Shown here: positions 36,513-64,000 of the stretch, piece after piece | Layout of the letters: each line of letters starts with the position of its first letter | Numbering within the stretch: the stretch's first letter is position 1 | From: Petrosia ficiformis | Lineage: Eukaryota; Porifera; Demospongiae; Haplosclerida; Petrosiidae | Reading direction: 5' to 3' | Assembly (NCBI GenBank): GCA_947044365.1 | Contig: OX345636.1 | Location: 8,390,001 to 8,454,000 of the forward strand | Length of the DNA stretch: 64,000 nt | Notes under the pieces: model-generated | The model's input: only the letters and a program-made list of their open reading frames with translations | The model's database searches: none | Told to the model about the DNA's origin: nothing | Position numbers and translations under genes: made by a program

Positions 36513-36518
36513 TTTATT
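36513..36518 (-). promoter_or_regulatory. Candidate polyadenylation signal
   Basis: AATAAA on the minus strand (TTTATT on the plus), about 140 bp beyond the stop of the 36.7-kb MATH exon. Confidence 0.4.
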
Positions 36519-36656: not shown

Positions 36657-37165
36657 TTAATGTATAATAATTTTAGATATTACAAAACACAATTTATCAC
36701 TATTAATATATTCAGTGTTATAATTAGCATTGTATTCTAAATCACTGTGTGATATGAAGTCACGTTTACCCAATCCACTAGGAGCTGTGTCTCCTTGTGT
36801 GACTCTTGTACGATATTCTAATGGTGCATTGTAATGGTCAATAGTCTTCTCCACATGTCCCTTATCCTCCTTCCAATTGAGTAGTTGAATAGTAATCTCA
36901 CTATTGAAAGGCCATTTTAAGCTCTCGTCATATTCACCTTTCATGAGCACCACACCCACACCTACATGTGTACCTGTACTAGTACCGTAACCATTAGGAT
37001 AAACTCGTAACTCTAGTTTGTATCCACTGGGTCCAGTATAGAATGGTTGACTATACCACTGATCATCTACTCTCTTGTGCTCACTAAAGTTGTACATAGT
37101 GAGAGGGAGGAGATAAGGGAACTCAGTTACAGGTGTAGGAATATACCAACTAGGTACATCTTGAC
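36657..37165 (-). CDS. MATH-domain terminal exon (soluble end)
   Basis: The exon opens after TTGCAG at 37166 in phase 1 (linker QDVPSWYIPTP). It encodes a full MATH domain: QPFYTGPSGYKLELRV, GTHVGVGVVLMKGEYDESLK, ITIQLLNWKEDKGHVE and a final KLCFVISKIIIH, then TAA at 36657. The other MATH exons have CAG/GTAATA at this point. Here that donor is lost (ACATTAATAATA) and the frame stops, with AATAAA about 140 bp further (minus strand, 36518-36513). MATH domains bind short peptide motifs of receptors or adaptors. It is very like the 41-kb exon, so the two arose by recent duplication. No own 5' exons were recognised. It could be the last of a set of alternative 3' ends, a separate gene, or a dying copy. 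Confidence 0.75.
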
Positions 37166-40100
37166 CTGCAATATAATAAATAATAAATAAATTATTAATA
37201 ATTTGATAGTAAATCTAACAGGTATTGACTCCTATGCTAGTAGGCTTTTCAATATCAACAAAGATGTGAAATGATTGGAATTTGATTATGTCACTAGTAC
37301 ATGTTGTTTATACAGTACTGAATATATTTACAAGTTATATTACATGTTTACAAGACTCATGTAGTGTTTCTATATTAATATAATATCAAGTATTATCACT
37401 AATATAATAATGTAAACATGTTATTATAATGTGATGAGTACTAAACTATAATATATCACATTATGATATTTCATGTTCTTTATACTAGGAACTAGATAAT
37501 TATGATGTATATAATTATCACAAGATGATATAAATATATTATTATATTTTATATCATCTAGTGTTATATCATGAATGAATCAGTGTCTGGATATTCATAT
37601 TTATAATGTAAAGTAATGTATTACCTCATTATATTGATTTAAGTAACTACTAACTAACAGACTTAGTGTTTATATTATCTGTTCAGTACTATACAAGATA
37701 AGAAATATGAACACAATCAGCATCTATCATTATTTTATTATAATTATTGATTTGACTAGTTCAGTTTATGTGCAGATATATAATGAATATCCTAACATTA
37801 AAAATCCATTCAGGTATATAGTAATTAAATGAATATTCAGATAGAATGGATATTCATTCCAGTCCTAGTACATAGTCATATAGAATATTAATATCATTAT
37901 GATAGAAGGGCAAAGGTTGGTTGTGTTCAAATACAAATGTTCATCATAGTGTGGTTGTATTGAATGAGATTATTAACACAAAACATGTGATCCATCCTAC
38001 AACTGATAGTTGTGTATATTAATAAACACTGAGTGTAGTATAAATATATTTCAATGAGTTCAGTGAATAGTGAAGAGTACATTTCACTGAATATAAATGT
38101 AATTATACACATGTAATGATAAATCATTCATATTAGTATAGTAACATATTATAATCAAAACTAAACCTATTAAATTATATTAATGATTATAATAATTACA
38201 TAATGTGATGATCATAATCATAACCAGTATTCTTATTATTAAATCACTACATGTCTTGTAATATACTATAGTATAAAACTATTATATATGAAGTTATCAC
38301 ATTATTCATTAGCTAACTGTAAACTACAAGACAATGTATAAACATGACTATGAATATAATTATGATGTAATTATCATTTGTTATCTCTATAGATATCTGT
38401 CTCCTGATTTTATAAGGAACATACTTCAGGGAAATACTACCTGGTACCTGGATCAAAATGGTTGCTCATATCAGAGGAAATTGTAGGTATGGTTCATATA
38501 ATATATACATGTACTATGGATGATGATGTCATACTAAATTACGTGCTTCTAAAATATAAATTAAGTAGTACTGCTACAGCAATAAAAGCAATGGTGAGAA
38601 GATATAGCTCCTGAAAGATGAAGCCTAGTCTTTCAAATACTGAATCTAACAATTCTTGTTAATGAGACTAATACATTTGTAAGGTAACAGGTGATGTTAT
38701 TTTCCTGCTACACAGACTATTAATGTGTCTATCCAGGTTCATTTAACAGTCAGTTATAACAGATTTCATAACTCATAATGTCTGAATGAGTAGTGAGTAG
38801 ATATCTAATGAATCTTAATAGTCATGATGAATATATTATACATGTAATAAAAATAATTGTGAATGCCAACATTTATATCCACAACAATATTGACATAGGA
38901 TGAGATATACTATGTTGTCATAGCAACATAATTGATTTTGTAGGAGGTATATCACTCCTGTTTGCTGATATGTAACTAGGACTATGTATACATGTAGATA
39001 ATAATAATTTATACATGTCTATAAATTATTATGTATTTCATACCAGAAGCTCATGAAAGGGAATGACTCCCACACAAATTATAGTAATTACACAAGTGAT
39101 GTTTCTTATCCTAGTATCCAGTTTAGGTTACATGTTCCTATTATAATTCAGAACTAGATATCATGTATAATATACTATGTCTATTAGTAACTACCTGTGC
39201 ATGTGGTATACATGTGTTTTATACATTTTGTATGTATCTATTAGTTAAAATAAGACATGCTAAATTCTATCAAATCAAATTTTAAAGTGTGTATGTATTT
39301 ATCTTAAGTTCAGTACAATCATCTGTGTCTCATTATATTTGTATGGAAATCCTGTTGATGAGCTTCTGTGTGTTACTATGCACATGTGTACTTTATAATC
39401 AATAGTATGTGGTTAGTTATATCTTGTGTTAGGGATATATGTACATGTAATAATTATGATCTTCTCCTATCTTGATCACTGTGTGGTAATGATTCACTAT
39501 ATCTATAGTCCTGGTAACAGGATCAATTGAAATATATGATTTTTCTAGAATTGATAATTGAATTTGGTCATTCCAATCAAACTTATAATCACACCTAAGC
39601 TCATAAAGGAATCATACATACATCTTGATAGCTAGTCGAGGTGGACTATAACTGAAATGATTTAATTGCAAACATTCCTGTCTTATTGCCTGGACTATAG
39701 ACACAGTGGTTTGATTTTACATGTACATGTACATTGTATGACATGAGTGTATGGGAATGAGACTGTGTAATAATACATGTACGTATGTCATATGAACAGA
39801 TGTTGTATATTGTCAGTATATTAGAACTCTTATCTACAAGTACATGTAACTTGTGATATTTACTAGTAACATAATTATAAAGTCTATAAAGACACATTAG
39901 TTTACTAAATCATATACATGTATATACTCAGGAGCGCATGAACCCCTCCGAAGGTGGGGAAGGAGCGTACAACTGCAAACACTAAGCAAACAAGGTGGAG
40001 GCGCTACATGGCTGACAATACACAAAATTAAATCACATTGGTAGTTAGGAATTAGATAAGCTTTTTGGGTTCATTGTTAATTATAAATGAAATGGTAATG

Positions 40101-40481
40101 TACAGACCAGAAGTAGACAAAACAGGAGTAGATAGAACACAACAAGTCAATATCAAGTATAATAGATAATGAGTATGTGTTTAATTAATCACATGATGTA
40201 TATAACAATTATGTGTAAGAAACAAAATGGTTTGTGTAATTTGTGTTGATACAATTTATATTACATAAAGTGTGTGTATTAAATATAAAACAATGAATCA
40301 TGTCAAATATGTAAATATCAACTTGTAAATTTCATGTTCTTCTCTTATAATTATAATTATCACTAATTACAATCCAATTATCTGTACATCACTAATTATA
40401 ATATTATAAATCTCTTCCTGATGTTACATGTAATCATAATATTGTCCTGATTCATGTACTCCTGTTTCACCTAATCACATT
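37166..40481. other. Intron or intergenic DNA, no clear gene
   Basis: Very A+T-rich. One open stretch on the plus strand (about 38395-38485), between a CTCTATAG acceptor-like and a GTATGG donor-like site, reads YLSPDFIRNILQGNTTWYLD and is otherwise unsupported. A CAGGAGCGCATGA word at 39929 matches the terminus of the TIR transposon at 3829. Confidence 0.4.
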
Positions 40482-41492
40482 TCATCTACTAATTAATTTC
40501 CATTTATAAATTATATATGAGTCTGGTTGAGTTATTATGTGTACAAGACAGTATCTAGAGAGATGTATCTGTATACCAGCTGATACACAAGGTTTAGAGA
40601 GGATTAAAGTTTGTGAGATTATTATGATTATAATTATATTAAAATTAATGATAATACATGAATTACAAGTAGATGAAATGTGAGTGGACAAAACAGGAGT
40701 AGATGAACCTGTTCTAAATAGTAATCATGAGAGGTGACATTATTAGTAAACTTATTATAATATCAGTTACATAACATAATAATAATTGATATAGATAACA
40801 GCTGATAATGATTACTGATCCAATTATCAATACTTCACTAATTCAATATTATTATCAAACATGTGATGTACTAGTTATGTAATTTTAATAATGTGTGTAA
40901 TAATATCATGTTACTACAAAGGGTCTATATGTATACATGTATGTAATGTTATATAATATACAATATGTTTTATTACCTGTATGTATGATAACTTTAGACA
41001 CTCTGAAACATAGTGTGTCGTTATGAAGGTATTCTGTGTTGTTATCAGCATTATACTCTAAATCCTTGTGAGGAATGACTTGAGGTTCAAGCCGTGAACC
41101 TGGTGCTGTACCTTCATCTATTACTCTTGTACGATATGCTATTGTTGCATTGTAGTGTTCAACGATCGTTTCCACATGTGCCTTATCCTCCCTCCAGTTT
41201 AGCAATTGAATAGTAATCTCACTATTCAATGGCCAGTTCAAAGACTCATCATACTCCCCCTTCATGAGACATATACCTACACTTAGGTGTGTACCTTTAC
41301 CAGCAAGAGCACCATTAGCGTGAACACGTAGTTGTAATTTATATCCATTTGTTGTGGAGTAAAAAGGTATACTAAGCCACTGGTCACCAACTCTCTTGTG
41401 TTCATTGTAGTTGTACATTGTTAGTGTACATGGAGGGAGGAGGTGTGGGGACTGAGTCTCAGGAGGGATACACCAGGTTGGTATATCAGTAC
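40482..41492 (-). CDS. MATH exon plus transmembrane tail exon
   Basis: MATH exon 41492-40977 (516 bp, phase 1 at both ends) is followed after a 268-bp intron by a terminal exon 40708-40482 (acceptor AGAACAG, matching phase, stop TGA). The MATH part begins with linker TDIPTWCIPPE and has LMKGEYDESLNWPL and LLNWREDKAHVE. The tail exon adds 74 residues: a Ser/Thr-rich stretch (GSSTPVLSTHISSTCNS), a strongly hydrophobic run (CIIINFNIIIIIIISQ) fitting one membrane span, and a polar end. The protein would be a membrane-anchored TRAF-like molecule; orientation is unknown. No upstream exons of its own were found, so it may be spliced to the constant exons at 60-64 kb or start in unseen exons. Confidence 0.7.
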
Positions 41493-41749
41493 CTATGATA
41501 ATAAATATAATAGTTAATACAATAAATTAATTTACAGAATTATAATATCTTCATGAGGTATAGTAACTATACTATTATTAGTAATGTGTAAATATATTTG
41601 AATAGTATATCATGAAAAGAAGTGGTCACAATATAACTGATCAGGAATGTGTAATTATAATAATTATGTGAGTGTTGTATATAATAGATATGTTTAATAT
41701 ACTATACTTTTATGTATAGTTTCATAACTAGCATAACAATAATTATTAA

Positions 41750-42290
41750 TATACTAGTTAATTACAATTATAGTATGTGGATATTGTATGTAATTGTTAT
41801 ATCATACATGTACCTCTGATCTCCACATGTAATATATTGTTATTGATGGTATGGTGTCATCACAGTATCAATATATTACATGTGTACATGTGTACGTATG
41901 CTATATCTGTTTTGTACATGTAGCATGGAAATGAAGTGGAAATGTTATTCCTTTCCTGAAGTTTTGTAATGGTTTATGGATTCATTCCTTATTTTGTAAA
42001 GAATAGACCTGTTAATTGTAGAATGTCATCATTCTGTCAACATTTATCATGTGTCACTCACTACAAGTGATTATGAAACATGATACATGTATTTGTGTCC
42101 CTTTGATAATGGGTGTATATTAATTGGGATTTAAAATGTGTTGTTATTAATATCAGGTGTTATTAATTGTGTCACATACATCATGTATTTGTACTTTAGT
42201 ATTCAATTACATGTACACAGTGTAACATGTATAATCAGGTTCATGTTTCATGTATATATCCTGACAGGGGTAGGGTTTATATCATACTAT
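41750..42290. repeat. Direct repeat flanking the 82-bp satellite, left copy
   Basis: It matches 45540-46125 over most of its length (GTAGCATGGAAATGAAGTGG, CAGGTGTTATTAATTGT, TTCATGTATATATCCTGACA). The two copies bracket the satellite and one mobile element, so the unit duplicated before or during array growth. Confidence 0.8.
41824..41883. repeat. Stem-loop with paired changes between copies
   Basis: ACATGTAATATATTG and CAATATATTACATGT are exact reverse complements around 29 bases. In the second copy (about 45660-45730) GTAATATAT has become GGAATATAT and ATATATTAC has become ATATATTCC, so a T-A pair is now G-C. Confidence 0.7.
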
Positions 42291-42734
42291 CGTAGTATAG
42301 TATCATAATAACATCTAATATTATTTCATGTGTTTATTTACATGAAGTACAAGTCTATAATTGTTATTATGACATATATCATAATTTGGAATTAATTCAC
42401 AAGAAAAGTAAAAAGTTCAACAGTTGAAGTGTGTATACAAATTTAACAATTATTATACAATGTACTCAATTTTCTATTCACTGCACATGTAGCAAGTTTC
42501 CATAGGAACCGTATACATGTATTTCTAATAGAGTGTCATCTCATGTGTATAGGTACATGTATGTCATCTATATTGTCAGATAGATTTATGATAGCATAAA
42601 CAAAAGATAATACATTGTTATCATAAACACATGTTTACTATGGAAACATGTTACTTGTATTTACATTTTAGTAGCTAATCACATGTACATATTTACCAAT
42701 AAAGCTACTACATCTGTGTTTTATACAACATTAT

Positions 42735-44925
42735 ATGTGCTGTTGAATATGCCCCTTCTAATGAAACCCTATTGTACATGTACATGTACATGTATTATTA
42801 TCTTAACAGGTCCTATTGACTCCTGTGCTATTGAATACCCCCCTTCTAATGAAACCCTATTGTACATGTACATGTATTATTATCTTAACAGGTCCTATTG
42901 ACTCCTGTGCTATTGAATACGCCCCTTCTAATGAAACCCTATTGTACATGTACATGTATTAATATCTTAACAGGTCCTATTGACTCTTGTGCTATTGAAT
43001 ACCCCGCTTCTAATGAAACCCTATTGTACATGTACATGTATTATTATCTTAACAGGTCCTATTGACTCTTGTGCTATTGAATACGCCCCTTCTAATGAAA
43101 CCCTATTGTACATGTACGTGTATTATTATCTTAACAGGTCTTATTGACTCCTGTACTATTGAATACCCCCCTTCTAATGAAACCCTATTGTACATGTACA
43201 TGTATTATTATCTTAACAGGTCCTATTGACTCTTGTGCTATTGAATACGCCCCTTCTAATGAAACCCTATTGTACATGTACGTGTATTATTATCTTAACA
43301 GGTCTTATTGACTCCTGTACTATTGAATACCCCCCTTCTAATGAAACCCTATTGTACATGTACATGTATTATTATCTTAACACGTCCTATTGACTCCTGT
43401 GCTATTGAATACCCCCCTTCTAATGAAACCCTATTGTACATGTACATGTATTATTATCTTAACAGGTCCTATTGACTCCTGTGCTATTGAATACGCCCCT
43501 TCTAATGAAACCCTATTGTACATGTACATGTATTAATATCTTAACAGGTCCTATTGACTCTTGTGCTATTGAATACCCCGCTTCTAATGAAACCCTATTG
43601 TACATGTACATGTATTATTATCTTAACAGGTCCTATTGACTCTTGTGCTATTGAATACGCCCCTTCTAATGAAACCCTATTGTACATGTACATGTATTAT
43701 TATCTTAACAGGTCTTATTGACTCCTGTACTATTGAATACCCCCCTTCTAATGAAACCCTATTGTACATGTACATGTATTATTATCTTAACACGTCCTAT
43801 TGACTCCTGTGCTATTGAATACCCCCCTTCTAATGAAACCCTATTGTACATGTACATGTATTATTATCTTAACAGGTCCTATTGACTCCTGTGCTATTGA
43901 ATACGCCCCTTCTAATGAAACCCTATTGTACATGTACATGTATTAATATCTTAACAGGTCCTATTGACTCTTGTGCTATTGAATACCCCGCTTCTAATGA
44001 AACCCTATTGTACATGTACATGTATTATTATCTTAACAGGTCCTATTGACTCTTGTGCTATTGAATACGCCCCTTCTAATGAAACCCTATTGTACATGTA
44101 CATGTATTATTATCTTAACAGGTCTTATTGACTCCTGTACTATTGAATACCCCCCTTCTAATGAAACCCTATTGTACATGTACATGTATTATTATCTTAA
44201 CACGTCCTATTGACTCCTGTGCTATTGAATACCCCCCTTCTAATGAAACCCTATTGTACATGTACATGTATTATTATCTTAACAGGTCCTATTGACTCCT
44301 GTGCTATTGAATACGCCCCTTCTAATGAAACCCTATTGTACATGTACATGTATTAATATCTTAACAGGTCCTATTGACTCTTGTGCTATTGAATACCCCC
44401 CTTCTAATGAAACCCTATTGTACATGTACATGTATTATTATCTTAACAGGTCCTATTGACTCCTGTGCTATTGAATACCCCCCTTCTAATGAAACCCTAT
44501 TGTACATGTTCATGAATTAATATCTTAACAGGTCCTATTGACTCTTGTTATATTGAATACCCCCTTCCAAATGAAACTCTGCTACATGTACATGTACATT
44601 GTATACATGTATGTACGTGTACATGTATTATCTTACTTTACCAACAGGTCCTATTGACTCCTGTGCTATTGAATACGCCCCTTCTAATGAAACCCTATTG
44701 TACATGTACATGTATTATTATCTTAACAGGTCCTATTGACTCCTGTGCTATTGAATACCCCCCTTCTAATGAAACCCTATTGTACATGTACATGTATTAT
44801 TATCTTAACAGGTCCTATTGCTATTGAATACCCCGTTCTAAATGAAACTCTGCTACATGTACATTGTATATGTACATGTACATGTATTATCTTACTTTAC
44901 CAACAGGTCCTATTGACTCCTGTGC
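42735..44925. repeat. 82-bp satellite, about 26 copies
   Basis: The unit contains TATCTTAACAGGTCCTATTG, ACTCCTGTGCTATTGAAT, CCCCTTCTAATGAAACCCTA and TTGTACATGTACATG. Higher-order order is visible: variant units (TGAATACGCCCC, AATACCCCGC, CTTAACACGTCC) recur in sets of about five. Each unit carries a good splice-acceptor string (TTATCTTAACAG/GTCC). The last unit passes into a 45-bp open stretch ended by GTAAGA. Confidence 0.95.
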
Positions 44926-44949
44926 TATTGATTTGGCGAGAATTATGAC

Positions 44950-45274
44950 CAGTAAGAAGTTGCGTCATTCCTGTGGGCTAGGTCAATTAATGGGTGTGGT
45001 GGTAAAAGAACGCGCATTCGAGACCAGCAGAAAGAAAGCTCCCTTAGCTAAGTAGCTTACGTAGAAACTGGAACTACTAGCTAGCTATTCTGTCTGAAAT
45101 ATACCCCTACAAGGTCCTTTGAAAGGTCAGGAGAGTAGATAATCAAAATAATAACTATAATACGCTGTTATCTTTCATGCTTGATAAAGTCAGCCATGAT
45201 TACTGAATGCTGGACACAACAAAGCAGTCATAGGGATACTTTTATAAATTTGTAAAGCAATCATAGGGATGTTT
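44950..45274. mobile_element. AATCATAGGGAT-family copy
   Basis: Close to the 8865 copy. It ends with two successive termini (GCAGTCATAGGGATAC and GCAATCATAGGGATG) about 33 bp apart, suggesting one insertion beside another. Confidence 0.7.
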
Positions 45275-45539
45275 TTTTTCTCTATAATTATACACTTGTT
45301 ATAATAATGTTATATATAGTATGTGATGTTGGTTATAATAGATATGTACAATACTACATGTTATAATAATTATTATAATAATGTTATATAGTATGTGGTG
45401 TTGTTTATAATATATATAATTATAATATTCTACATGTCATGTATAATTATAATTAAACAATACTCACATATTTTAGTTTAGTAAATAACAACTATTGCTC
45501 TACCTAATTCCAAATTTAGTTATCAAAATGACTAGTAAT

Positions 45540-46125
45540 GAACATTTAAATGTAAGCATTTGACCAAATTATTATTTGACAAATAACTGATTTTCATATC
45601 CATAAGTCACATATGAGTGTTGTGTGTAATAGTTATATAATACATGTACCTACAAGTGCCACACGGAATATATTTTTATTGAGAGTGTGGTCACTGTTGT
45701 ATCATCACAGTGATAATATATATTCCATGTGTACATGTGGAGGTATACTATAACTGTTTTGTACATGTAGCATGGAAATGAAGTGGAAATGTTATTCCTT
45801 TCCAGTAGTTATGGAATGGTTTATGGATTCACTCCTTATCTTGTAAATAGACCTGTTAATTGTCGAATGTCATCTTTTTGTCAACATTTATCATGTGTCA
45901 CTCACTACAAGTGATTATGAAACATGATACATGTATTTGTGTCCCTTTGATAATGGGTGTATAATTGGGATTTAAAATGTGTTGTTATTAATATCAGGTG
46001 TTATTAATTGTTTCACATACATCATGTATTTGTACTTTAGTATTCAATTACATTTTCACAGTGTAACATGTATAATCAGGTTCATGTTTCATGTATATAT
46101 CCTGACAGGGGGAGGTCATACTATC
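45540..46125. repeat. Direct repeat flanking the 82-bp satellite, right copy
   Basis: Counterpart of 41750-42290, with small deletions. Confidence 0.8.
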
Positions 46126-47417
46126 ATACATACGGAGGAGGTTAGTACCTATATATAACAGTAGCCCATGTAAGAATAAACTGTTCAATGATATGCAGGA
46201 GTGTTTGACATCTGTATTACACACTGTACTAGTTATGTTATATACACACAAGGGTTTTCATAATTCTCAAAATATGTTTTAATTGTCAACCCATTGTGTC
46301 TGTAAAGTGATCATCAAATATCACAATACATTCATACATGTCAACCCAACAAGTGTTTAGGAGTACATAATATATTTATGATATAAATGGTCACTATTGA
46401 AAAATGTGCCAAGTGGGTGTGTTTAGGTGTGGTTTAATCAATAATCAATCATTACACATGGTGCGCATGAAAGTTGATAATTAGACCTACGTATGTACAT
46501 TATGATGATATAACTTTAGGATATGAAAAGTATTGAGTATAATACTGGTATAATATATTACTTATTATTACTGGATCACATGATCTAGTAAATGGTTACA
46601 TATTATTATCACAGCTGCTGTTATTATTTTCCTGTCCATTCATTGTTGTTCATATTATAACTAGTAATAGGTATATTGAACAGTTGAGACAACATTTTTT
46701 ACAGTATAACAATCATTAACTATTATGAACTAACACTTACACACACCTCATCATACCATATCTTTTTATTAAAGTATAATGATAATAATAATTATTAACT
46801 CGTGTCATACCAGGATATAATAGGATCAAATGAAATGTGTAATTGTAACATACATGTACATGTAACATAACAGGGTATCATAATGTGGATAGGTTTATAT
46901 GAGTATAGATAATATATTCAATGTTATTTGCATTGTACTAAATAAACTTACAAGTTCTAATTTACAAGAGTCATGTACTGTTTATCAATAACACATTAAC
47001 CACTAATGTAATTATATTACATAATTATGATAATGAAGTGACTATATATACATGTATTATATAAAGTACATGTAATTGAATAATATATCCTATTAGAGGT
47101 TATTTGATTACATCATTTACATGATAATACATAAAAAGTAAACTGTGTCACACTGTGAGTCTGATATTTTGAGTGGTAAACTACTATACAAAACAATAAT
47201 AACAGTATCCATTACATGTACTTGTTGTGTTCTACTACTGGTAATATAATGTTGATAAAACCCTTTAGTCTGGTAGTTCCTAAGTGTAGTTGAATAACAT
47301 ACTAGGTATATATGATTACAACTATTTTGTTTCCACATAATACAATAGAATCAAGCTTTCTTTTACCACTCATTTCATGAAGAATATCTGGTAAATCCCA
47401 GAGTATGAAATATTGTG
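46126..47417. other. No gene seen
   Basis: A+T-rich DNA with short chance frames only. Confidence 0.5.
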
Positions 47418-52051: not shown

Positions 52052-52371
52052 CTGTAGATATAAAATGAAGATTATTCTCAACTGCATTAGTTTCAGTTGA
52101 TCATATGACATCTCAATAATATTATATATATTAACAATTATTGTTTGATTTCCAACACTATTCTGTATTTTAACCTAGCTGCTATTACTGATAGATTGTT
52201 ATCTATGTAGGTGAGTGACAATAATCCCATAAGTAGATGATATCTGATGAACTTATAAGTATACTACATGCTATTTATAGTATAATTATGTGCTACATTG
52301 ATTTGATTAGGAGGTGGTGTCTCTTTAATAACATGTACACAAAAATGTAATGTATATAAGTGATTCGTTAA

Positions 52372-52915
52372 TATGGAGGTATACATGTACATGTACTGTA
52401 AGATTTAAGTATAAGACTAGTACTTGTACATGTACTAAGTAAAGTATTAATATGGAGGTATACATGTACTAAGTAAAGTATTAATATGGAGGTATACATG
52501 TACATGTACTTCAAGAATTAAGTATAAGACTAGTACTTGTACATGTACTAAGTAAAGTATTAATATGGAGATATACATGTACATGTACTTCAAGATTTAA
52601 GTGTAAGACTAGTACTTGTACATGTACTAAGTAAAGTATTAATATGGAGGTATACATGTACATGTACTTCAAGATTTAAGTGTAAGACTAGTACTTGTGC
52701 ATGTACTAAGTAAAGTATTAATATGGAGGTATACATGTACATGTACTTCAAGATTTAACTATAAGACTAGTACTTGTACATGTACTAAGTAAAGTATTAA
52801 TATGGAGGTATACATGTACATGTACTTCAAGATTTAAGTATAAGACTAGTACTTGTGCATGTACTAAGTAAAGTATTAATATGGAGGTATACATGTACTA
52901 AGTAAAGTATTAATA
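52372..52915. repeat. Tandem repeat, about 79 bp, 6-7 copies
   Basis: The unit contains TACATGTACATGTACTTCAA, GATTTAAGTATAAGACTAG and AAGTATTAATATGGAGG. Shortened units lie at both ends. Confidence 0.9.
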
Positions 52916-53671: not shown

Positions 53672-54243
53672 TTAACGCTTAGTGGTCTGATGCATCATCC
53701 TCTAGGGTCATATGTCACATATATATGACATATTTGTGACATTTGAACCCTACGCAGTTTGTAGTGCATTCCTAGCATTATGAAGCACTCCAAATGTTTC
53801 CAATTAGTGTCAGTGATAAGCCAATGAAAATGGGAGAAAAAGTTGATTATTTTTGGCTGCCCTTTGCCCAAATATTAGACTACAATGGGAATTTTAAAGA
53901 GGGCCTGTGCAATGTTGAGATTCAGTAACCCTGCCCACGCAATGTGGTGGATAGCTGAGACATTTCTCTTGTTATAAAACCTGATATCGTGCGTGTAACT
54001 GGTGCCAATGTGCAGTGGGGTTGTTTTATTGCAGCTACAGCAAAAGAGGGAGAACAATGCATTTGAATTAGTCCTACAAGCGCGTAGGGCTTTCGAGTCC
54101 CGTTAAGCAAGTTGGTAAAAGTAGTACTCCATGTCGGAAAAGAGCCAAATTTAGAGTACAGAAAGTGAACGGTGGCCAAGATATCTGTAACAGAGATACC
54201 AGTGTTTGTTGGGAAGAATTTTGAAAAACAATCCCAGGGTTAA
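53672..54243 (-). mobile_element. piggyBac-like MITE, family 1, copy C
   Basis: It is bordered by TTAA on both sides (53672-53675, 54240-54243) with GCTTAG / CAGGG next to them. The interior matches copies A and B in reverse. It contains the nested palindrome GTCACATATATATGACATA near one end, also present in shorter form in copy A. Confidence 0.65.
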
Positions 54244-55890
54244 CAGCACAAGCTAAAAATCTGTCAACATTTTAATTAATTGTATTTCACATCTGATCAA
54301 TAAGTAACATATTAAAGAATTGAGGAAGGAATTTATAAATGTATGCAGTAGTACATGATGTTACACAGTACTATATAAATATACATGAGAATAATTAGTA
54401 CTTAAAATGTACTTGTAGTATTTCCTGATTGTGAATCCAAAGCTACTGATAATCAAAGTGGATAAATATATTAACACTACAGCTGATATTATCCTTCATA
54501 TTTATCATGTATTGTATGTGTATGAATTTACTGGCTCCAATCTCATTATATTAGATGAAAAAGAGATCAAAAAAGAGAAGTACTTCCAGATGTACAATTA
54601 TTATGACTAACAAGAATTCATTATAGTAGTACATTAAAAGATATTAATGTAAATTTCTAATACATCATCATAATGAATTGATCACTGTACATCATAGGCT
54701 GTCTATTTTTTTTTGTTGTTTTTTTTGCACAAATATAAAAAGCTCATAAAAGAAACAGTTTAAATGTGGATATAAAATTATTTAATACACACCAATTACC
54801 AACAGTGATTTGAGCCAGAAGTATAATATTTGAAAACAAGACATGGAATATAGAAATCTCAATTAGATAAGCATGCACATCTCCTCTATAGAGCTTTGTT
54901 GTGGAGGCTTTTGCTAACAACAATGTGGTTGGTCATGTTATTGTGATAGTATTTCTAAATCAGTTGAATATAATAATTATTATTGCAACTATCAAAATTT
55001 TCTATTAGCATTTGAAAGCTTAAGATGCAGCTGACATTCTTCAAAGTAATGTAGAAGGCGTTATCTATACGGGTTCCCAACTTGGCTCCAGTAGTCACAT
55101 AGCAGAGGTGAATTTATTAAACAGTGGTGTGCTGTGATTATAATCTAATCATAATTATGTAGAGTATAATTATTGCTATATAGGCAAATTTAGATTAGGT
55201 TCCAGTAGCTTATATAGTACTCAGAACTCCAGTTGGATTTATTTACCAGTGATGATTATCATTGTTCACAAAAGTGGAATGTCAATGTTGTGTCACTGTT
55301 GTGATATAATTGCATCCTGAACTAGTCATTTACTACAATTAAACAAATATTATATTATAGTAAACTGCACTCATTTCGAAGTTCAGATTTCATGCAGTTT
55401 GATAATCACTGATATAATTGATCAAGTTAATCATGATACTACAAACATTGATGATTGCCAATACCAACTAATGCACACCTCTATAATTACATCACTGTCA
55501 ATAATCTTCTATATTATGATACATCATTGTTTTGTTATTAGCTACATAAATACTATTTTCCTTTCGTCATTATGATCATTGATCATAAATACCATTTTCC
55601 TTTAGTAATTATAATTGACATGGCAGCATACTTTGCATATTATAATAAGTACAGGTATTATAATAATTATAATAATCATACAATCACTGATTATTATTCT
55701 TATAGTAAATCAACGACACTGCATGACTGTTAATTATTACAGTGAATTCACAGTAAATGCAGCTACTAAACTGGATTGAGACTGAATTCAGTAAATCACA
55801 CAATGTTATTACAATAGCTCAGTTTTGCATTTCATTCAAAATTGATTGTGGTCATCCCTTTTTATGAGGTTTCATCATAATTATTAATTA
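54244..55890. other. No gene seen
   Basis: A+T-rich DNA without recognisable exons or repeats. Confidence 0.45.
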
Positions 55891-56440
55891 ACCCGAGCCC
55901 GCGTAGGCGGAGGGTTACAGTAGTCTTCTTTTGTGTGTGTCTGTGCGCGCGCGCGTGTGTGTCTCTGTGTCTGTGTGTCTGTGTGTTACCGCTTGATCTC
56001 CACAACTGCAAGGTCTTACTGCATTCTGAGCATATCGGCAGAATACTGGTATAGTGGCAGGTAAGAAATAAGTGCGATTTGTTCTGACCTTGACTTGTTG
56101 CAGAGAAACAGCCGTGTAAATTCTCATCGATCTGTCGCCATCTTGAAATTTCATCGTTTTTGCTGATGTCAGCAGAAAACACTGAAACACTAACTTTTGT
56201 ATCTTTGAAGCTTTGTTTCTTGGGCTTTGTCTATCGTCCTAACGAGTGTTTATACAGCTATTTGTGAAGTTTTGTCCAGAAATTCGCTAGTTCTCGAGAT
56301 CTGATGGCCATGCTATCCCCATAATTTGTACTGACTTAGTGTTCATATGTTTTGGGCTGTTGCAATATGTTACTTAGGCAAAGTTGTTCTAAAGTCATGC
56401 TGTTTTAGCAATAGCTAGCGAGGGTTCTGCACTTTAGTGC
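55890..56440. repeat. G+C-richer repeat-like block with (GT)n
   Basis: It starts TTAACCCGAGCCCGCGTAGG, followed by a GTGTGTCT/GCGCGC microsatellite and a distinctly less A+T-rich stretch. It looks inserted, but no second terminus was identified. Confidence 0.4.
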
Positions 56441-56689
56441 ATTTATTTTATTTGTGTTATTACAATATCAGTTACATATTTCAAATACTGATACTAGAAG
56501 TAAAGTCCAATAATGACTGATTACCAATCTTTGTATCAGTGAATCACTAGTATAAATGATCATCATTTTTTTGTACATTTATGACAATAATTATTATGAG
56601 TATAATATCTATATGAACAATGTAATTACAATGATTGAGATAAAGTACTACTATGATCGCTTTGCAGTAGCTATCACTCATTGCTTAAT

Positions 56690-57435
56690 TAAGGTTGTAC
56701 TAGGGGGAGGGGTAGATGAAACTCCAATCGGTTACTAGTTTTGCCAGCTTCTTGCTGCATACAATCTGGTTCAATTCTGTATCTTTTGCCCGGGGGTATA
56801 ATTATTGGGCCTAAATGTTTTCACTGATAGTTTCTAAACGTGGTGGAGGGGGCGGTAGCCGGGTAACCCTGGCAGGGTAACTGTAGTTGCTCTCTGAGAA
56901 AGATCGGAATTTGATAGTGTCTAGAAAGGTAAATTTTATGGTTTCGGTGAAAAGCTACAGAATTCAGCTTTCTTCAGCCTCTTGTAACTATAAAAGTAAA
57001 ATGAATTTGCAGAAAACGGCTCTATTTGTTTTCTCAAAATGCATTGTACTTGGTGCGCGCACGCCATGATTGGTGGGCGTGGCTTTCTTGGTTTTGTACT
57101 TACTACGATTGCAAAAATGGACATTTTTCCAACACTCCCACTCTTGCAGACAAGTATAAAGATCATTAGAAGATATGAAGGTTGCTATTACACCAGGTTA
57201 GAGTCATATTATATAATATTCTATTCTGAAACTGATTAAGGTGCTACTAGGGAGTGGGCGGATGCGACTCCAATCAGTGAAAACATTTAGGCCCAATAAC
57301 TATACCCCCGGGTGGGTGTGGCTTCCAAAAGATACAGATTTCAACCAGATTGTATGCAGCAAGAAGCTGGCAACACTAGAAACTGATTGGAGTAGCACCC
57401 GCCCATGGAAAAGACTACAACCTTTAAGGCACTAG
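56690..57435. mobile_element. Fold-back element with about 150-bp arms
   Basis: 56697-56835 and the reverse complement of 57280-57430 share ACTCCAATC, GCCAGCTTCTTGCTGCATAC, CAATCTGGTT, CTGTATCTTTTG, CCCGGGGGTATA and TTGGGCCTAAATGTTTTCAC. A further partial arm lies at 57244-57275. It lies right after the stop of the 57.5-kb tail exon. Confidence 0.75.
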
Positions 57436-57467
57436 TATCAGTAGCGTTATTTCATGCACCACGCTTA

Positions 57468-58186
57468 TTAACTTTTCATCAGCAGGCTGACCCCCTGCAA
57501 CTTCTTTAACAACATACACAAAGCAAGTGTCCCCAAAATTGATAAGTAGATATAGAGCGTGAGAAATGTAGTAACTGTTGGTTCTGTTGAGTTTTATTTT
57601 AATATTCAAATAATGAAGTATGAAAATGAGATGACATGAGTAATAATTTTTAATTTTTGTATTAAATTACCTGCTGGTAGTGAGACCTGGAAACATAGAC
57701 TATCTTGATGAAGATATTCGGTGTTTTTGTCGCTGTTGTATTGTAGATCTGCATGGGGGATAAGCTGATGTTCAAACATACCATTTGGTGCTATGGCATC
57801 TTCAGTAATTTTATTTCGACAGTCAAATGGCGTACTATCGTTGAAGGGAACAATCGTCTCCACATGTCTGTTATCCTCTCTCCAGTTGAGAAGTTTAATC
57901 GTAACATCAATTTTCAAAGGCCAATCTAAGCTGAGATCATCCTCTCCTTCTGTTAGGAACACACCTGCAGATATGTGTGTACCTTTACCACTATCAGATC
58001 CATCAGGATCAACAACTAATTGTAAGCGATATCCGCGTTTTGATGTGTAAAATGCAGGGCTCCACCATCTGCTACTAATGCTTTTGTATTCATGGAAATT
58101 GGACATGGTTAGTAGACATGGAGCAATGAGTTGAGAGGATTCACTGATAGGAGAATTATACCAGCTTGGTGTGTCAACAGTTTCAC
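57468..58186 (-). CDS. MATH exon plus transmembrane tail exon
   Basis: MATH exon 58186-57671 (516 bp, phase 1 both ends) opens after ATACAG with linker ETVDTPSWYNSP and carries SPAFYTSKRGYRLQLVV, GTHISAGVFLTEGEDDLS and LLNWREDNRHVE. After an intron of only 87-96 bp, the tail exon 57583-57468 follows in phase. Two acceptors nine bases apart (CTCAACAG, ACCAACAG) both keep the frame. The tail encodes a hydrophobic span (FLTLYIYLSILGTLALCMLL), then KKLQG and MKS before TAA. LMKGE, usual in this set, is LTEGE here. It probably ends transcripts beginning with the exons at 60-64 kb, with or without the MATH exon at 59.3 kb. Confidence 0.75.
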
Positions 58187-59280
58187 CTGTATATTTAAAT
58201 ATAGAAAATAATTATAAACTGATAATCATTATGTACATTTAATATGAATCATATATTCAGTACAACAGTGTATATCTCAAGGACGTCATGCATATTGATA
58301 GAATGATAATTATTCTTATATCAGTTGTAATTGTTATCCTGTTGAATATTTGAGAATACAATAGTATCTTTCACTTCACACAAATTTTGTTATCCAGGAA
58401 AGTACTGTATATTGCCTATTCTCTGAAATTTATGAAGTCTAAATCATGAGGAAGATAAGGAGTTTCATTTGACACTAAATTCTTCAGAAGTGGACTTTCA
58501 AACATTGTGTGGTAGAAGAACATCTCTTTACACTTTATAATACACTTATGGATCACTATCAGGTATTCATGTGAGAAGTAAATATTCATTAATGATTAAT
58601 CAGAAGTCTTGTTTTTGCTCAATTTTAAATATCATTGCTATGTGCTACCAAATTATAAATAGCAGTGTATAATAATTATGAAACCATAACTTGTAAATTG
58701 TTCATATTTATAATTATTGTGCACCTATAACACAGATCTATATCAGTCTAATTATGTGTTGTATATTTTCCACTATCATAAATACTGCATCTACAATACT
58801 CTACTGCATTTTGTTACTGAACATGACGACAAATAGAGAGAGGAAATATATGTGAGTGTTACAATAATCATATACAACTTAACTATCTACTTGTCAAATC
58901 AGCAACAAAAATAGTAAATGTTGTTTTATATCTACACCTGGAGTGGTACATGGGAAAATAATAATGAATTGTTGTTTTAGCTACAATTTAAGCAAACCAA
59001 GTTTAATGGACATTTTCTATAATTATATAGTTTATGCTATTCATTTTCGAATTATCCTTAGACACCAACAACTAATTATAGTAGTCCAATAATTACATTG
59101 ATAAATAGTTCAATGATTGATTAGTCAGTCTAGAGGGGAGAGAGGTCAGATACTAATGTAACAATAACATTAAATAGTTGTGGAGTGTCCTAGAATATAA
59201 ACCTCTGACATAATTATAAGTACTTTATCTAAATTGAACTTGTTATAATGGTTCACAAACTGTGTTTTATAATATATTAC

Positions 59281-59760
59281 CTGTTAACATAGTAACTTTA
59301 GAAACTTTAAAATACAGTGTATCGTCACAAAGATAATGTGTGCTCCTATCAATGTTGTGGTGTAGATTACTGTGAGCAATGAATTGTTGATAGTACATCC
59401 CTCCAGCTGCTCTGTCTCCAATAGACACTCGGTCTAAACAAAAGGATGGAGCCATATTGTGACTGAAGATTCTTTCGACATGATTTCGATCCTCCTTGGA
59501 GTTGAGAAGCTGCAAGTTAATGAAGCCTTCGAAAGGCCATTTCAACTTGTCGTCATTCTGACTTTTCATAAGATACACAGAGGCAGATATATGTGTACCT
59601 TTAGCACTACTATGACCAACAGCATCAATTTTTAATTGTGCTTTGTATCCATTGGGTGCTGTATAAAAAGGAGGGCTGAACCAGGAATCATCATTGGTTT
59701 TGTGTTGGGAGAAGTTATTCATTGCTATTATACACGGTGGATGTGCAATTGTCATATAAT
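59281..59760 (-). CDS. MATH exon, first of the array
   Basis: The exon (480 bp, phase 1 at both ends) follows GTTATAG and joins the linker exon 60050-59982 in frame. It carries SPPFYTAPNGYKAQLKI, GTHISASVYLMKSQNDDK and LLNSKEDRNHVE. It differs from the others in a shorter leader without the conserved Pro-x-Trp-Tyr and in Ser for Trp in LNWxED. The donor is CAG/GTAATA. No convincing tail exon of its own lies before 58186, so it may be spliced to the next MATH exon, giving a double-MATH protein, or be alternative to it. Confidence 0.75.
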
Positions 59761-59981
59761 CTATAACATAAAAAGTAAATGTTCTATAACAATAATATTT
59801 TATTATTATGCTTCATAAAATCATGCAATGCATGTATACTTATAAGTATAATTATACAATGAACATTAGGAAATTAGTGACAGTTTTCTCTAATCATGAA
59901 ATGTTTAGTATGTATACTGTTAGCTTTTTGTGAAATCTGATTTTAATGCACATAACTAATATTTCTTCACTATAATTATAC

Positions 59982-60935
59982 CTGCATCAGTTACATTTGT
60001 CACATTCACTTGTGATATTCGGTTCTTCAGTGCTTCTAACTTCTGATTTCCTGTATTCAATGAAAGTAAAAACTTTGATAAATTTAATCCTTCTTAATGA
60101 TATGTAGTTTTCTGTAAGTGGAGAATACATTATTTAATCTCCAATTACAAATAACTACTTACAACGTAAACTGTGAGATTCAATGTCTTTATGATTAATA
60201 AGGTCAATTTGCTTGTCGTAGTAAAATCTCTAACATCTCTAAAATCTCACAGTTTTACAAACTCTAAAGAGTACAAAACCAACTTTTCATACAAAAAATA
60301 GTGCTTGTAAAAAATATTGTGCTAGTTCAAATGAATTGTTTTTGCAGTATGCAGTCCATCATGTATATGACTTAAAGTAATATACTGTAGCACAATTAAT
60401 GGATAATACAATATACAGTAGAATTCATTTTGACATTTTCCACAACTTTATAATATTATATATACCACCCAAAAATTATTGAGCACGTTTAGTAAAATAT
60501 TTAAAACACTAAAAACTGATATTCTATAATTATAATGAGTATATTAAACACATAAGTGTCACCAGATTCAATTTGTATTGTTTTCATTTTGGACATCTTC
60601 TTCTCAACATCCAAAGTTTTACTTAGCTGGATTTTTTCTGCTGTTATTTTGTTGATTTGATCCTTATAAACTGTAATTAAACACTATGAGTTAGTATGTA
60701 ATTCAAATATGAAATTAATACCTTTCAGCTCTTCAGTGAGTTTGATAAGAGGTTCAACTGGTTTTGATCTTTTAGCTATACAAGTAAAATAAATAATAAT
60801 TATTATTCAGTTTACAAATTCTTTAAAGTGTTTTGATTATTATAACCAATAGCTTACCTCCAATATTACCAATCTTGTCTGTCCCCTTTTCTTGTATAAA
60901 GCCACTCTTAGAGCTACCACTTCCTCCATCATCAT
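59982..60935 (-). CDS. Coiled-coil/linker exons, second set
   Basis: Four short exons, all phase 1 at both ends: 60935-60858 (78 bp, Gly/Ser-rich DDDGGSGSSKSG), 60775-60722 (54 bp, ending LIKLTEELK), 60670-60563 (108 bp, YKDQINKITAEKIQLSKTLD and DVEKKMSKMKTIQIESG) and 60050-59982 (69 bp, NQKLEALKNRISQVNVTN). They form a helical coiled coil leading into the MATH exon at 59760. The first three repeat the order and lengths of the exons at 62585-62958, so an exon triplet was duplicated. Because each exon is a multiple of three, any can be skipped without shifting the frame. Confidence 0.7.
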
Positions 60936-61388
60936 CTAATATTTTATGTAAATTTGGTGAATAAATTTCAGTAGTAAAATACATCAGATTGAGCACAACA
61001 TTTGTATTTTCTAGTTATAATTATTCTTACACATGAGCAGGAATTTCTATTTTTATATAATTACTTCCATTATTTAGAGGTTTCCGTGATTATGTATTTA
61101 AACATTAAAATATTATTATATTCATAAATAAATTGTATTAAGTACATTCCATTCCCAAGACTATTATTTTAGTACAAAAAAAGGTAACAATAGACATGCA
61201 AAGGAAAGACCAAATTTCTGTCATGTGGGAAATGGTTTAATTACTATTATGACCAAATTAATTACAGATTATGGCAATAATAATTATTCAAGCACCATAG
61301 TGTAAAGCAATTTATTTAATTTCTATTTTCTGTTAAGTTTTATCTGCCAAATGTATTGGAATAACCAGGTGTGAATGAAAAAGACTAC

Positions 61389-61455
61389 CTTTCAGCTGTA
61401 TAGTGGTTTCAGTGATAGGTTTCAGTGACAGATTCCATTGTTTTTAAACTCTCAG
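61389..61455 (-). pseudogene. Decayed extra copy of the 54-bp linker exon
   Basis: Between an acceptor-like TGTAG and a donor-like GTAGTC, the minus strand ends PITETTIQLKG, as the 54-bp linker exons do. It is 67 bp long, not a multiple of three, and has a stop (TAA) upstream in that frame. It looks like a third triplet that has died. Confidence 0.5.
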
Positions 61456-61681
61456 CTACACATGCGAAATTTATTATCATGATGACTTCCTCATGTCTGA
61501 CACTCAATGACTTTTTGTATTTATGTATTAAACAGCTATTAGCATTTTATTTAGTCCATTTAGTTACAGTTTTACATTCTTTCCTAGTTCGAGCGTGAAT
61601 TCCTTTATGTGCCATGCCCCTTAACACAATTTTCATGTATGTGACATAAGCAAATTATAATAATTATATAATATATATTAA

Positions 61682-62198
61682 CCCTTTTAACGCGCTGGGC
61701 GTGTTTCTACAAAAAAAAATAAGACAAAACAAAAACAGCAAGACATAAACAAATAGTATAATGAGGAAAGATATATTATACATAAAAATAAAACATAAAG
61801 TCAAGACAAGTCTACTATCCATTTCCTTAAGAGATTTTTAAACACCGAGGTGGATGGAGTCTCTCTCAACTCCCTAGGTAGAAGATTCCACTCCTGGGAT
61901 CCTTTAAATGCAAATGATCGTTTATACCACTCTTTTCAATATCATCATCTATATTACCATCAAAGTTGTCATCACTGTCTCCATCACTGTCCATCATAAT
62001 ATCTATGACATCATTGATATTGAATTTTCCATTATGAGTAAATACATTAAAAACAACCACAAGAAATAGTTTACACAGTAACCACAAGAAAAGACTGCTA
62101 CATTAATAATATTTTTACACCTGGTCATTATATAATGACCACCGCGTATTCAGGAAGTCATACGCAGTCATTATATAATGACGGTCGCGCTAAAAGGG
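61682..62198. mobile_element. piggyBac-like element, family 2
   Basis: Inverted ends CCCTTTTAACGCGC and (reverse complement) CCCTTTTAGCGCGACC are flanked by TTAA at 61678-61681 and 62199-62202. Near the right end, GTCATTATATAATGAC occurs twice (62125, 62173) around ACGCAGT/ACGCGGT, a second palindrome. The TTAA duplication and CCCTTT ends fit piggyBac-type elements. It sits inside the intron between the two coiled-coil exon sets. Confidence 0.75.
61801..61920 (-). pseudogene. C-terminal scrap resembling a non-LTR retrotransposon ORF
   Basis: Forty codons on the minus strand read RSFAFKGSQEWNLLPRELRE, then TPSTSVFKNLLRKW and a stop. The WNxLPxxxR..FKxxL pattern is the usual C-terminal tail of non-LTR (LINE-type) reverse-transcriptase proteins. 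It lies within the family-2 piggyBac-like element, so it was either captured or inserted. Confidence 0.6.
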
Positions 62199-62584
62199 TT
62201 AATATATAAATAAATATATATTTGTATATTTATATATAGTTTGAACATGTGAGAAAGCAATCATAAGTATGACCCTACAGGCCATGAAAATTAATGAGCT
62301 TTGATTTATGGAATTTATTGTAAGCAGAACATCATAATCACATTTTAGCATTGAAAATGACTGATGAAATAGCATGCTTTGCATGTCATTTTTGGCAGGT
62401 TCATAATTTCCTTTGCTGGAGAGAAAATCTCTCAAGAAAATCCCAAAATAATCTTTGTCTCTGTGAAAGCAGCAAGGGTTTATACAATGTTTTAAGCTTG
62501 GGAATGCCCATGTGGTTTAACAATGTTGGATTTACCATTTTACTATGTCTCCGCTATTAAAATGCAACATTTTGTCATAATAAC

Positions 62585-62958
62585 CTGATTGAATTTGTAA
62601 AGACTTTGGTTTTGAAATTTTCTTCTCAATTTCCAAACTTTTCTCCAGCAGCTTTTTGTCTGCTGTTAGTTTGTTGATTTCTTCTTTGAAAACTGTTATG
62701 AAACATTAATTGAGTAAGTGTGAAATGAAACAATGAAACAATGAAACTTACTTTTTAGTTGTTCAGTGAGTTGATTGTTGAATTCTTTGGCTTTTTTACT
62801 ATCATCTGAAATCAACAATATATTTTTATAACAAGTATTAAAATAGTTGCACATAATACCTCCAAAGGTAGTGATCACATCTTCTTTCTGCATCACAGTT
62901 GGTTCATAAGATCTTAGACTACTACTAGAAGCATTGCTTTCTTCATGGCTATCTGATA
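62585..62958 (-). CDS. Coiled-coil/linker exons, first set
   Basis: Three phase 1-1 exons: 62958-62860 (99 bp, Ser-rich SDSHEESNASSSSLRS, then an acidic part), 62805-62752 (54 bp, DDSKKAKEFNNQLTEQLK, donor GTAAGT) and 62692-62585 (108 bp, FKEEINKLTADKKLLEKSLE and IEKKISKPKSLQIQSG). They follow the exon at 63137-63041 in frame. The 54- and 108-bp exons match those at 60722 and 60563 in length and sequence (INKLTADK against INKITAEK). They probably form a coiled coil used for oligomerisation, as in TRAF proteins (inference). Confidence 0.7.
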
Positions 62959-63040
62959 CTACATCAATAATTATGTAAAAGTAATCATTATTAATCAAGT
63001 GAATTATAAATTTATAACCAGTCAAACACAGATTTTATAC

Positions 63041-63137
63041 CTTTGTCTTTTTGTTGAAAATCAAGTGTATATAGTATGTCTTTATTCTCTGTTGCTGCAT
63101 GTTCTATATCTATTGTGGTTTCTTCTTCAGTTGATGT
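63041..63137 (-). CDS. Linker exon
   Basis: A 97-bp exon between ATATAG and the GTATAAAA donor. It starts in phase 0 and ends in phase 1, and so sets the phase used by every later exon. It codes TSTEEETTIDIEHAATENKD and a Gln/Lys end, an acidic linker. Confidence 0.65.
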
Positions 63138-63453
63138 CTATATGAATGTGAATGATAAACATAATAATAATTATTATACTTAATATATAAGCCTACATGC
63201 TTTATTAATCAATGTGATTTCGATTCAGTTTAAAATACTACTGCATGGTCAATGAATGAATGCATATGCCATTGTCATGTTTATGCTACCATTGTGGCCT
63301 CATAAAAATGACACTTACTTGAGTAGCTTAATATTTATAATTATAATTATTTTAACTATAATTATTTATATTTACAATTATATTATCATTGAGGCTCAAA
63401 ATGGTAATTGGGATATTCAATCAATAAACAATTAAAAAATGGTTGATACATAC

Positions 63454-64000
63454 CTTCTTTGCTGTGTATTCTAGGACTACACAATATCCAATGGACAAGC
63501 CAATAACACCAGCTTCAGTCAAGATGGAAAGATTTCGTTGCGCAATCAGGACTAGTAGGCTAGTGATAGTGTGAGGTGAACAACAGGTAAGAGTGATGGA
63601 ATTTCCTGTTTTTATGTCAACTACAATCACTTCATTTGCTAATTCTCCAAATGCTTTAGAAAGAAGTCGCTTTATGTCACTGAGTGTGTAATCATCAGTC
63701 TCCCACTCTAAAATAAATTTCACTGTTTCACATTTGAGAGGCATATGTGATAACGAAGAAGAGTGTTGAAGTAAGCGTTTACCCATACAAAAAGTAAGAC
63801 GAATTGTGTCACAGAAGTCAGATAAGTCATCCTCGTATTTTTTTATACATTCTTGTGCCTCTTGGATTTTAAAGTGTTCAGCAATTGCTTTCATGCAAGA
63901 AAGATTAAGTAAAGAACACTTTTCTTCAATAATTTCTAGCACTTGGTAGGTAGACGTACATTGTGTTAACCTGGGTTTCAATGCACGATAAGATAACCCA
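63454..64000 (-). CDS. Globular domain exon of the TRAF-like membrane gene (5' end cut by window)
   Basis: The frame is open from the window edge to a GTATGT donor at 63454 (phase 0) and joins the linker exon 63137-63041. It reads ALKPRLTQCTSTYQVLEIIE, a helical region with HFKIQEAQECIKKYE, FCDTIRLTFCMGKRLL, ETVKFILEWETDDYTL, IKTGNSITLTCCSPHTI, then VIGLSIGYCVVLEY. The apparent start near 63981 is a TTG, so the true start lies outside. I recall this LKPxLTxCTS...NSxTxTC...LxIGYCxV pattern from unnamed sponge predicted proteins but know no assigned function. No signal peptide or membrane span is visible here. It is the N-terminal or middle part of proteins that may end in MATH and a membrane tail. 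Confidence 0.65.

Follow-up and report, generated by a model that had tools for sequence, protein, structure and literature searches.

A probable TRAF-like gene with five serial MATH exons, in a tandem array of the sponge Petrosia ficiformis that varies at groove-equivalent positions

We analysed a 64 000-nucleotide stretch of the genome of the sponge Petrosia ficiformis (C1:8390001-8454000, hereafter the window), using the whole assembly (191 Mb, 29 contigs) for comparison. Feature coordinates are those of the window unless a contig or a kb position on C1 is given. The window carries, on its minus strand, a locus that is likely to be one gene for a TRAF-like protein with serial MATH domains. 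A preliminary description of this DNA had proposed five minus-strand MATH exons, and all of them are borne out: the frames at 59760-59281 (exon 1, m59; dN/dS 0.14-0.19), 58186-57671 (exon 2, m57), 52051-51530 (exon 3, M51, class 1), 41492-40977 (exon 4, class 2) and 37165-36657 (exon 5, class 3) each score above the cut-off of the Pfam family TRAF-mep_MATH, with E-values from 1e-16 to 1e-29. Searches of the PDB with the 52.1-kb and 41.5-kb exons retrieved TRAF1-6; for each of these two exons all 28 sequences listed were TRAFs, with TRAF5 the best among the matches listed. The four MATH exons that carry a donor measure 480, 516, 522 and 516 bp (the last, the 41.0-kb exon, by arithmetic from an acceptor and a donor seen separately). 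All are multiples of three with phase 1 at both ends, as described earlier, and the fifth closes with its own stop codon (36657-36659), the only one in a MATH exon of this gene. AATAAA lies at 36513-36518 on the same strand, at a distance of 141 nt counted from the stop codon's first base, and is found at equal distance in three of the four copies considered below, that is in the window, Q and R, and not in S.

A single set of 5' exons at 60-64 kb precedes all five MATH exons, again as first described. Two paralogous units, at 8806-8820 kb (A) and at 7330-7348 kb (B), carry counterparts of it, and we compared them with the window unit (U). All of these exons lie on the minus strand. The set opens with the N-terminal-domain (NTD) exon, an open frame at 63454-64000 that extends beyond the window edge to ∼ 64134 and comprises a helical part and a TRADD-N-type domain. 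Linker and coiled-coil-type exons follow in phase at 62585-63137 (e2, 63137-63041; e3, 62958-62860; e4, 62805-62752; e5, 62692-62585), and a second exon set lies at 59982-60935 (e6, 60935-60858; e7, 60775-60722; e8, 60670-60563; e9, 60050-59982), in which e7 and e8 are similar to e4 and e5. The coiled coil was called by eye from the heptad-like exons. Paralogue A has all of e2-e9 and paralogue B has e4-e9, without e2 and e3. Over its window part the NTD exon is 67-71% identical in A and B, with dN/dS of 0.19-0.29. DNA identity to A and B, respectively, is 76 and 71% for the NTD, 87 and 84% for m59-m57 and 93 and 89% for M51. Identity to the paralogous units thus rises stepwise from 5' to 3' (49.8-64 kb), as though its segments had undergone replacement on separate occasions. 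A possible remnant of a LINE-type reverse transcriptase, recognized by eye, sits at ∼ 61.7-62.0 kb in the intron between e5 and e6.

The NTD shows, by eye, a helical portion followed by a β-α-β-β-α-β pattern. A PDB profile search with it gave nothing credible. Its assignment as TRADD-N-type follows a chain of homology: one member of the NTD family (L055, at C1:33.886 Mb) shares 36% identity with the window NTD and scores above the curated threshold of NCOA6_TRADD-N (PF13820) with E = 1.7e-5, and the same part of the profile matches paralogue B weakly (E = 0.046, below the cut-off) and paralogue A not at all. At the expected place of the β2-β3 turn all four aligned sequences have Asn-Ser, and three of them Gly-Asn-Ser. 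Across the genome, MATH matches number at least 150, and those listed for the NTD family 125. Large arrays of the NTD family occur on C3 (5.9-10.9 Mb) and C5 (5.1-8.3 Mb), and some of the C3 copies have a zinc-finger match ∼ 1.8 kb downstream.

The window gene is one unit of a much larger array. Whole-genome searches were made with the NTD, the zinc-finger/coiled-coil exon and the MATH exons, and the matches were ordered on C1:6.24-9.06 Mb. They define a minus-strand array at C1:6.26-9.03 Mb (∼ 2.8 Mb), which includes repeated pieces and damaged copies, with at least 34 5' sets (8 NTD, 26 RING-type) and at least 146 MATH exons or fragments. A further two RING-type rows from this interval, both weak, were left out at first; with them the sets number at least 36. 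The tandem gene array that the preliminary description offered as its alternative is borne out at a higher level, in that whole units are repeated over this distance. MATH exons follow in the order class 1, class 2, class 3 after 30 of the 36 5' sets, and a class-1-type exon comes first after 35 (30 of 34 and 33 of 34 without the two weak sets). Over 20,000 label shuffles, the full order followed 1.7 sets per shuffle on average and 8 sets at most. Five exons are near-tied between class 2 and class 3 (within 10 bits); scored as misses, they reduce the count to 27 of 36. Seven of the eight NTD units hold m59, m57 and M51 together: close copies of m59 occur in seven, as does m57, in whose place the eighth has a MATH exon of uncertain type (labelled by position), and M51 has 12 close copies in the cluster, counting that of the window. 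Splice signals of class 2 (acceptor AG, donor ACAG/GTAATA) are kept in 24 of 24 copies, none of which has a stop in the exon. In the 264 kb surveyed around the window, six 5' exon types were sought by profile, and nothing above 11 bits came up besides the exons of the window gene, a search that a 5' exon of unknown type would escape; zinc-finger/coiled-coil and NTD queries located sets at 8401, 8509 and 8453 kb only.

A compact relative at C11:2344278-2347921 (3.7 kb) presents the same architecture at small scale. It consists of a half-RING exon, a RING/zinc-finger/coiled-coil exon and three MATH exons joined in phase 1, with introns of just 266-386 bp, and ends with a stop codon and an AATAAA about as far from it as in the window gene. 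Here the MATH exons are consecutive parts of one gene and, judging from the sequence, their inclusion looks constitutive.

Close copies within the array differ mainly in their last MATH exons. Among the window copy (P) and Q, R and S (five distinct comparisons), divergence of the class-2 and class-3 exons is 11-24%; outside them it is 1.3-2.2% in four comparisons and 5.7% in the shortest one. P and R, for instance, differ by 13.7% in the class-2 exon, 10.9% in the class-3 exon and 2.2% outside them; P and S differ by 23.9% in the class-3 exon and 2.0% outside it. For class 2 we enlarged the sample to 24 copies with 150-bp flanks (4 plus 20 of the 34 other matches of at least 280 bits, taken in list order except for two that were skipped), a choice that favours copies closest to the window exon. 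Median divergence was 10.5% in the exon, 2.2% upstream and 0.7% downstream. In the 20 of 24 copies with ordinary flanks, the exon differs by 9.7% and the flanks by 1.3%; the exon is the more diverged in 190 of 190 pairs, and the two measures are uncorrelated (-0.03). Not every exon shows this contrast. In the z1 gene of the window, compared with the copy at 8509 kb, the zinc-finger/coiled-coil exon differs by 1.1%, the class-1 MATH exon by 3.9% and the surroundings by 4.0%; for m59 the figure is 1.9-4.2% and for m57 3.5-6.2%, with 4.9-8.1% around them, and for M51 3.8-6.0%, with 1.9-2.4% around it. It is the last two MATH domains, then, that vary most.

Within class 2 this variability is focused on positions equivalent to the TRAF2 peptide groove. 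We mapped positions through an alignment with TRAF5 and compared 14 positions equivalent to the TRAF2 groove with the other 156 of 170. D399, G400, F410, F447, R448, S453, F456, S467, G468 and C469, with this numbering, are what we take to be TRAF2 groove residues; R393, Y395, S454 and S455 are partner contacts of TRAF2 according to the part of PMC12457700 covered here (an AlphaFold3 model with reference to other partners). Mean entropy is 1.24 at the 14 sites and 0.39 elsewhere (P 2e-5), 12 of the 14 being variable, and only one of 170 circular shifts, the true one, gives a value as high as that observed. The four residues from PMC12457700 alone give P 0.003. In class 3, four copies have 2.71 distinct residues at groove sites versus 1.53 (P 1e-5). 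All these P values assume independent sites and are uncorrected for the shared ancestry of the copies. Non-synonymous divergence exceeds synonymous divergence (pN > pS) in class-2 blocks 61-70, 71-80, 111-120, 121-130 and 131-140 (of 170); the same holds for blocks 1-10 and 11-20, with very low values of both measures there. The class-2 copies have also recombined: in the PHI test none of 1000 permutations was as low, rejecting clonal descent, and pairwise distances over nucleotides 1-150, 151-300 and 301-450 show almost no correlation with one another (r = 0.07, -0.03, 0.26).

The reading we favour, and consider likely, is that NTD, e2-e9, m59, m57, M51, class 2 and class 3 form one TRAF-like gene, one of about three dozen in a tandem array and variable at the groove. 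The single gene is suggested by the recurring exon order, the compact C11 relative and the sole stop codon with its AATAAA at the last MATH exon. Several observations weigh against this reading. Splicing across introns of 4-10 kb is an assumption, and a search of the protein collection with the first 781 predicted residues (8000 candidates scored) gave no match at E ≤ 0.001. The window NTD is without any Pfam match, and PF13820 matches one place in the whole genome, that at C1:33.886 Mb. Six of the 36 5' sets lack the full class 1, 2, 3 order: the set at 8076 kb has no MATH exon, those at 9034, 8509 and 8034 kb lack a class 2 or class 3 that could be called clearly, and each of the two weak ones, near 6.27 Mb, has one MATH exon. 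In nine sets (eight RING-type and the NTD set at 8034 kb) the matched stretch is interrupted by an in-frame stop, and some of the units are therefore probably no longer functional. Moreover, six MATH sets, of which three start with M51, two with M1 and one with class 2, have no recognized 5' set nearby, nor do some stray exons, and the pairing of 5' sets with MATH sets is therefore not one to one. As to groove variability, class-2 exon divergence exceeds mean flank divergence in only 194 of 276 pairs when all 24 copies are used, a count brought down by four copies whose flanks, on one side or both, have themselves diverged. In class 2 the sites corresponding to F410 and F447 are invariant, the whole exon has a pN/pS of 0.65, and block 51-60, where the sites corresponding to R393 and Y395 lie, has pS (0.398) above pN (0.129). 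Synonymous divergence in class 2 is raised too (pS 0.144 versus 1.3% in the flanks), so point selection alone is no full explanation.

Among the alternatives, we regard as unlikely, yet as the strongest, one gene whose MATH exons are alternatively included, as cassettes or mutually exclusively in the manner of Dscam. Being multiples of three with phase 1 at both ends, the four donor-bearing MATH exons can be joined in frame in any subset. Tandem repeats of variable copy number precede two of the MATH exons: a 79-bp repeat of 5.5 copies (52461-52898, plus strand) in the intron before exon 3, longer in paralogue B, and an 82-bp repeat of ∼ 23 copies (42736-44820, plus strand) in the intron before exon 4, with a shorter array of the 82-bp type ahead of the copy at 8375 kb. 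Their copy number varies between paralogues, and they are possible recombination or splicing elements. Equal phases are, however, expected of plain tandem domain duplication too, and the seemingly constitutive C11 relative argues for inclusion of every exon.

Two neighbouring genes, NTD-m59-m57 and M51-class 2-class 3, the latter with 5' exons of its own that escaped recognition, are in our view improbable. The MATH sets without a recognized 5' set, half of which start with M51, would fit such a division, as would the stepwise rise in identity to A and B from the NTD through m59-m57 to M51. Yet the donors of m59 and m57 are intact and no terminal exon is conserved after them in the three units, m59, m57 and M51 keep together in seven of eight NTD units, and the sole stop in the window gene is that of the class-3 exon.

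A further explanation, about equally improbable, concerns the contrast between exons and introns rather than the gene model: introns homogenized by gene conversion, or a backbone of young duplication, would leave the exons more diverged with no selection for new specificities. The raised synonymous divergence, the clear recombination and the overall pN/pS given above are what it would lead one to expect. Homogenization alone does not predict amino acid variability focused on the groove in two exon classes, nor pN > pS in blocks 61-80 and 111-140.

Finally, the preliminary description had assigned private terminal exons with a membrane span to three of the MATH exons (57.7, 51.5 and 41.0 kb), and these have not stood up. 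We counted tail-like exons in 264 kb around the window by criteria of our own choice (AG, phase 1, 20-80 amino acids, a hydrophobic 19-mer, a stop). Counted by distinct stops they occur at 0.82 per kb on the minus strand, 1.14 on the plus strand and 0.47 in shuffled sequence; at a density of ∼ 1 per kb, one within 2 kb of a donor is to be expected. The candidate after the 57.7-kb exon (57454-57583, minus strand, with tandem stops near 57470) was rejected, as in paralogue A its acceptor AG is lost and its frame broken; relative to A and B, a one-base gap in U puts the membrane span in frame with the acceptor, and the frame from the acceptor differs in A and B. The tail after the 51.5-kb exon is frame-shifted beyond the span in A and intact in B. 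That after the 41.0-kb exon carries no information, because the whole intron is nearly identical among copies. The frames of m59, m57 and M51 are kept in U, A and B alike, and the same comparison revealed no conserved private terminal exon after the 57.7-kb or 51.5-kb donor. It is accordingly very improbable that one constant 5' part is joined to alternative 3' ends, each of MATH plus membrane span, to yield a set of membrane-bound TRAF-like proteins: one 5' set, several MATH exons of equal phase and open membrane-tail frames after three donors of the window speak for such a design, but the tails occur at chance density with two of three disrupted in a paralogue, while class-2 donors and acceptors are intact in all 24 copies, the stop-bearing class comes last in 30 of 36 units and the C11 relative leaves hardly 400 bp between exons.

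On the single-gene reading, the transcript would join the 5' module (helical, TRADD-N-type and coiled-coil-type exons) to five serial MATH exons and end in the last. By arithmetic, the predicted product is a TRAF-like protein of ∼ 1,300 residues with five MATH domains, presumably cytosolic. Most other members of the array would instead combine a RING-type zinc-finger/coiled-coil front with three MATH domains. Members would be fairly constant in their front and initial MATH domains and would vary in the last two, above all at groove-equivalent positions, with recombination reshuffling MATH variants between copies while introns stay nearly identical. The use we consider most likely is that each MATH domain would dock a short peptide, from a receptor tail or from a foreign or self protein, and the coiled coil would cluster the complex; RING members would ubiquitinate, and TRADD-N members would recruit signalling partners. 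On our reading the array is a germline-diversified family of multi-MATH TRAF-like adaptors or ligases that probably serves recognition. More tentatively, and only as a possibility, it may be a sponge repertoire of intracellular TRAF-like proteins, conceivably with an immune or self/non-self role, that read peptides with serial hypervariable MATH grooves and are diversified by exon recombination over homogenized introns, perhaps also by exon choice.

The window also contains the start of the next gene, on the same strand at 9924-12658: a half-RING exon (∼ 12658-12494), a RING/zinc-finger/coiled-coil exon (∼ 11992-11374) and a class-1 MATH exon (10433-9924), with boundaries from arithmetic; its class-2 and class-3 exons fall outside the window. 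Its RING-like cysteine pattern, split across two exons, and its zinc finger were recognized by eye; for its second exon Pfam named neither a RING nor a TRAF zinc finger. The window gene has the NTD exon in place of this RING/zinc-finger front. A long minisatellite-like stretch at 18271-19580 is open on both strands (254 and 417 codons) and is probably no gene. Elsewhere in the genome, a second MATH array at C13 ∼ 5.0-5.17 Mb has many apparently intronless open frames of ∼ 350-500 amino acids with MATH matches, and open frames of 1181-1184 amino acids at C5 ∼ 3.73-3.77 Mb, one with three MATH matches, represent serial MATH without introns.

TRAF proteins typically have a single C-terminal MATH domain. 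The domains described here are of the TRAF class (closest to TRAF5, 3, 2 and 1 among the PDB matches listed), a coiled-coil-type region precedes them as in TRAF1-6, and array neighbours of the window gene have a RING/zinc-finger-type front. In contrast to TRAF1-6, three to five MATH exons would stand in series, the front of the window gene is TRADD-N-type rather than RING, and groove positions vary between neighbours. The design first suggested for this locus is that of the fly loci mod(mdg4) and lola, with their constant 5' exons; unlike there, we found no conserved alternative terminal exons here. MATH-BTB proteins of C. elegans, a family that Thomas is said to have treated in 2006, offer another comparison. 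In the part of PMC4334554 covered here, they are fast-evolving, show positive selection in the substrate-binding domain and are proposed to be immune degraders, a precedent for selection of this kind on MATH-type domains. Those proteins are BTB/Cullin adaptors, whereas the sponge genes have RING-type or TRADD-N-type fronts and serial MATH exons, and the class-3 exon ends in a stop that leaves no room for a BTB domain after it. Exon-confined divergence against near-identical introns does not appear in that part of the paper. Arthropod Dscam-hv (PMC3364881, as far as covered) likewise duplicates exons for one domain type within one gene; splicing there is mutually exclusive, whereas every MATH exon here may be constitutive.

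The closest published parallel is in another sponge. Amphimedon has 357 TRADD-N proteins with variable C-termini, MATH being among the C-terminal domains (Kaur et al., 2021; PMC8195603, in the part covered here), and the order of a death-like (helical) part, TRADD-N and a variable C-terminus resembles ours. According to the same part of that paper, MATH is not correspondingly expanded where TRADD-N is, and serial MATH domains and groove variability do not figure in it. In P. ficiformis, at least 150 MATH matches stand beside the 125 NTD-family matches listed, which qualifies that statement so far as the covered text goes. TRAF-like domains are enriched in two sponges (PMC4772301, in part). The literature searched, subscription journals excepted and some sources covered in part, yielded nothing for sponges on TRAF genes with serial MATH domains or on groove hypervariability.

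If the favoured reading is true, TRADD-N and MATH would be fused in one chain. In vertebrates the two are known binding partners, and TRAFs are usually few, conserved hubs on which immune signals converge. A groove-variable array of megabase size would mean that an early-branching animal turned such an adaptor into a recognition repertoire. If the array is indeed a repertoire of that kind, with the TRAF adaptor itself as its basis, it would give animals a counterpart to NLR or MHC-type diversity. It would also give testable form to the question of how sponges, without lymphocytes, distinguish symbionts, pathogens and self inside their cells.

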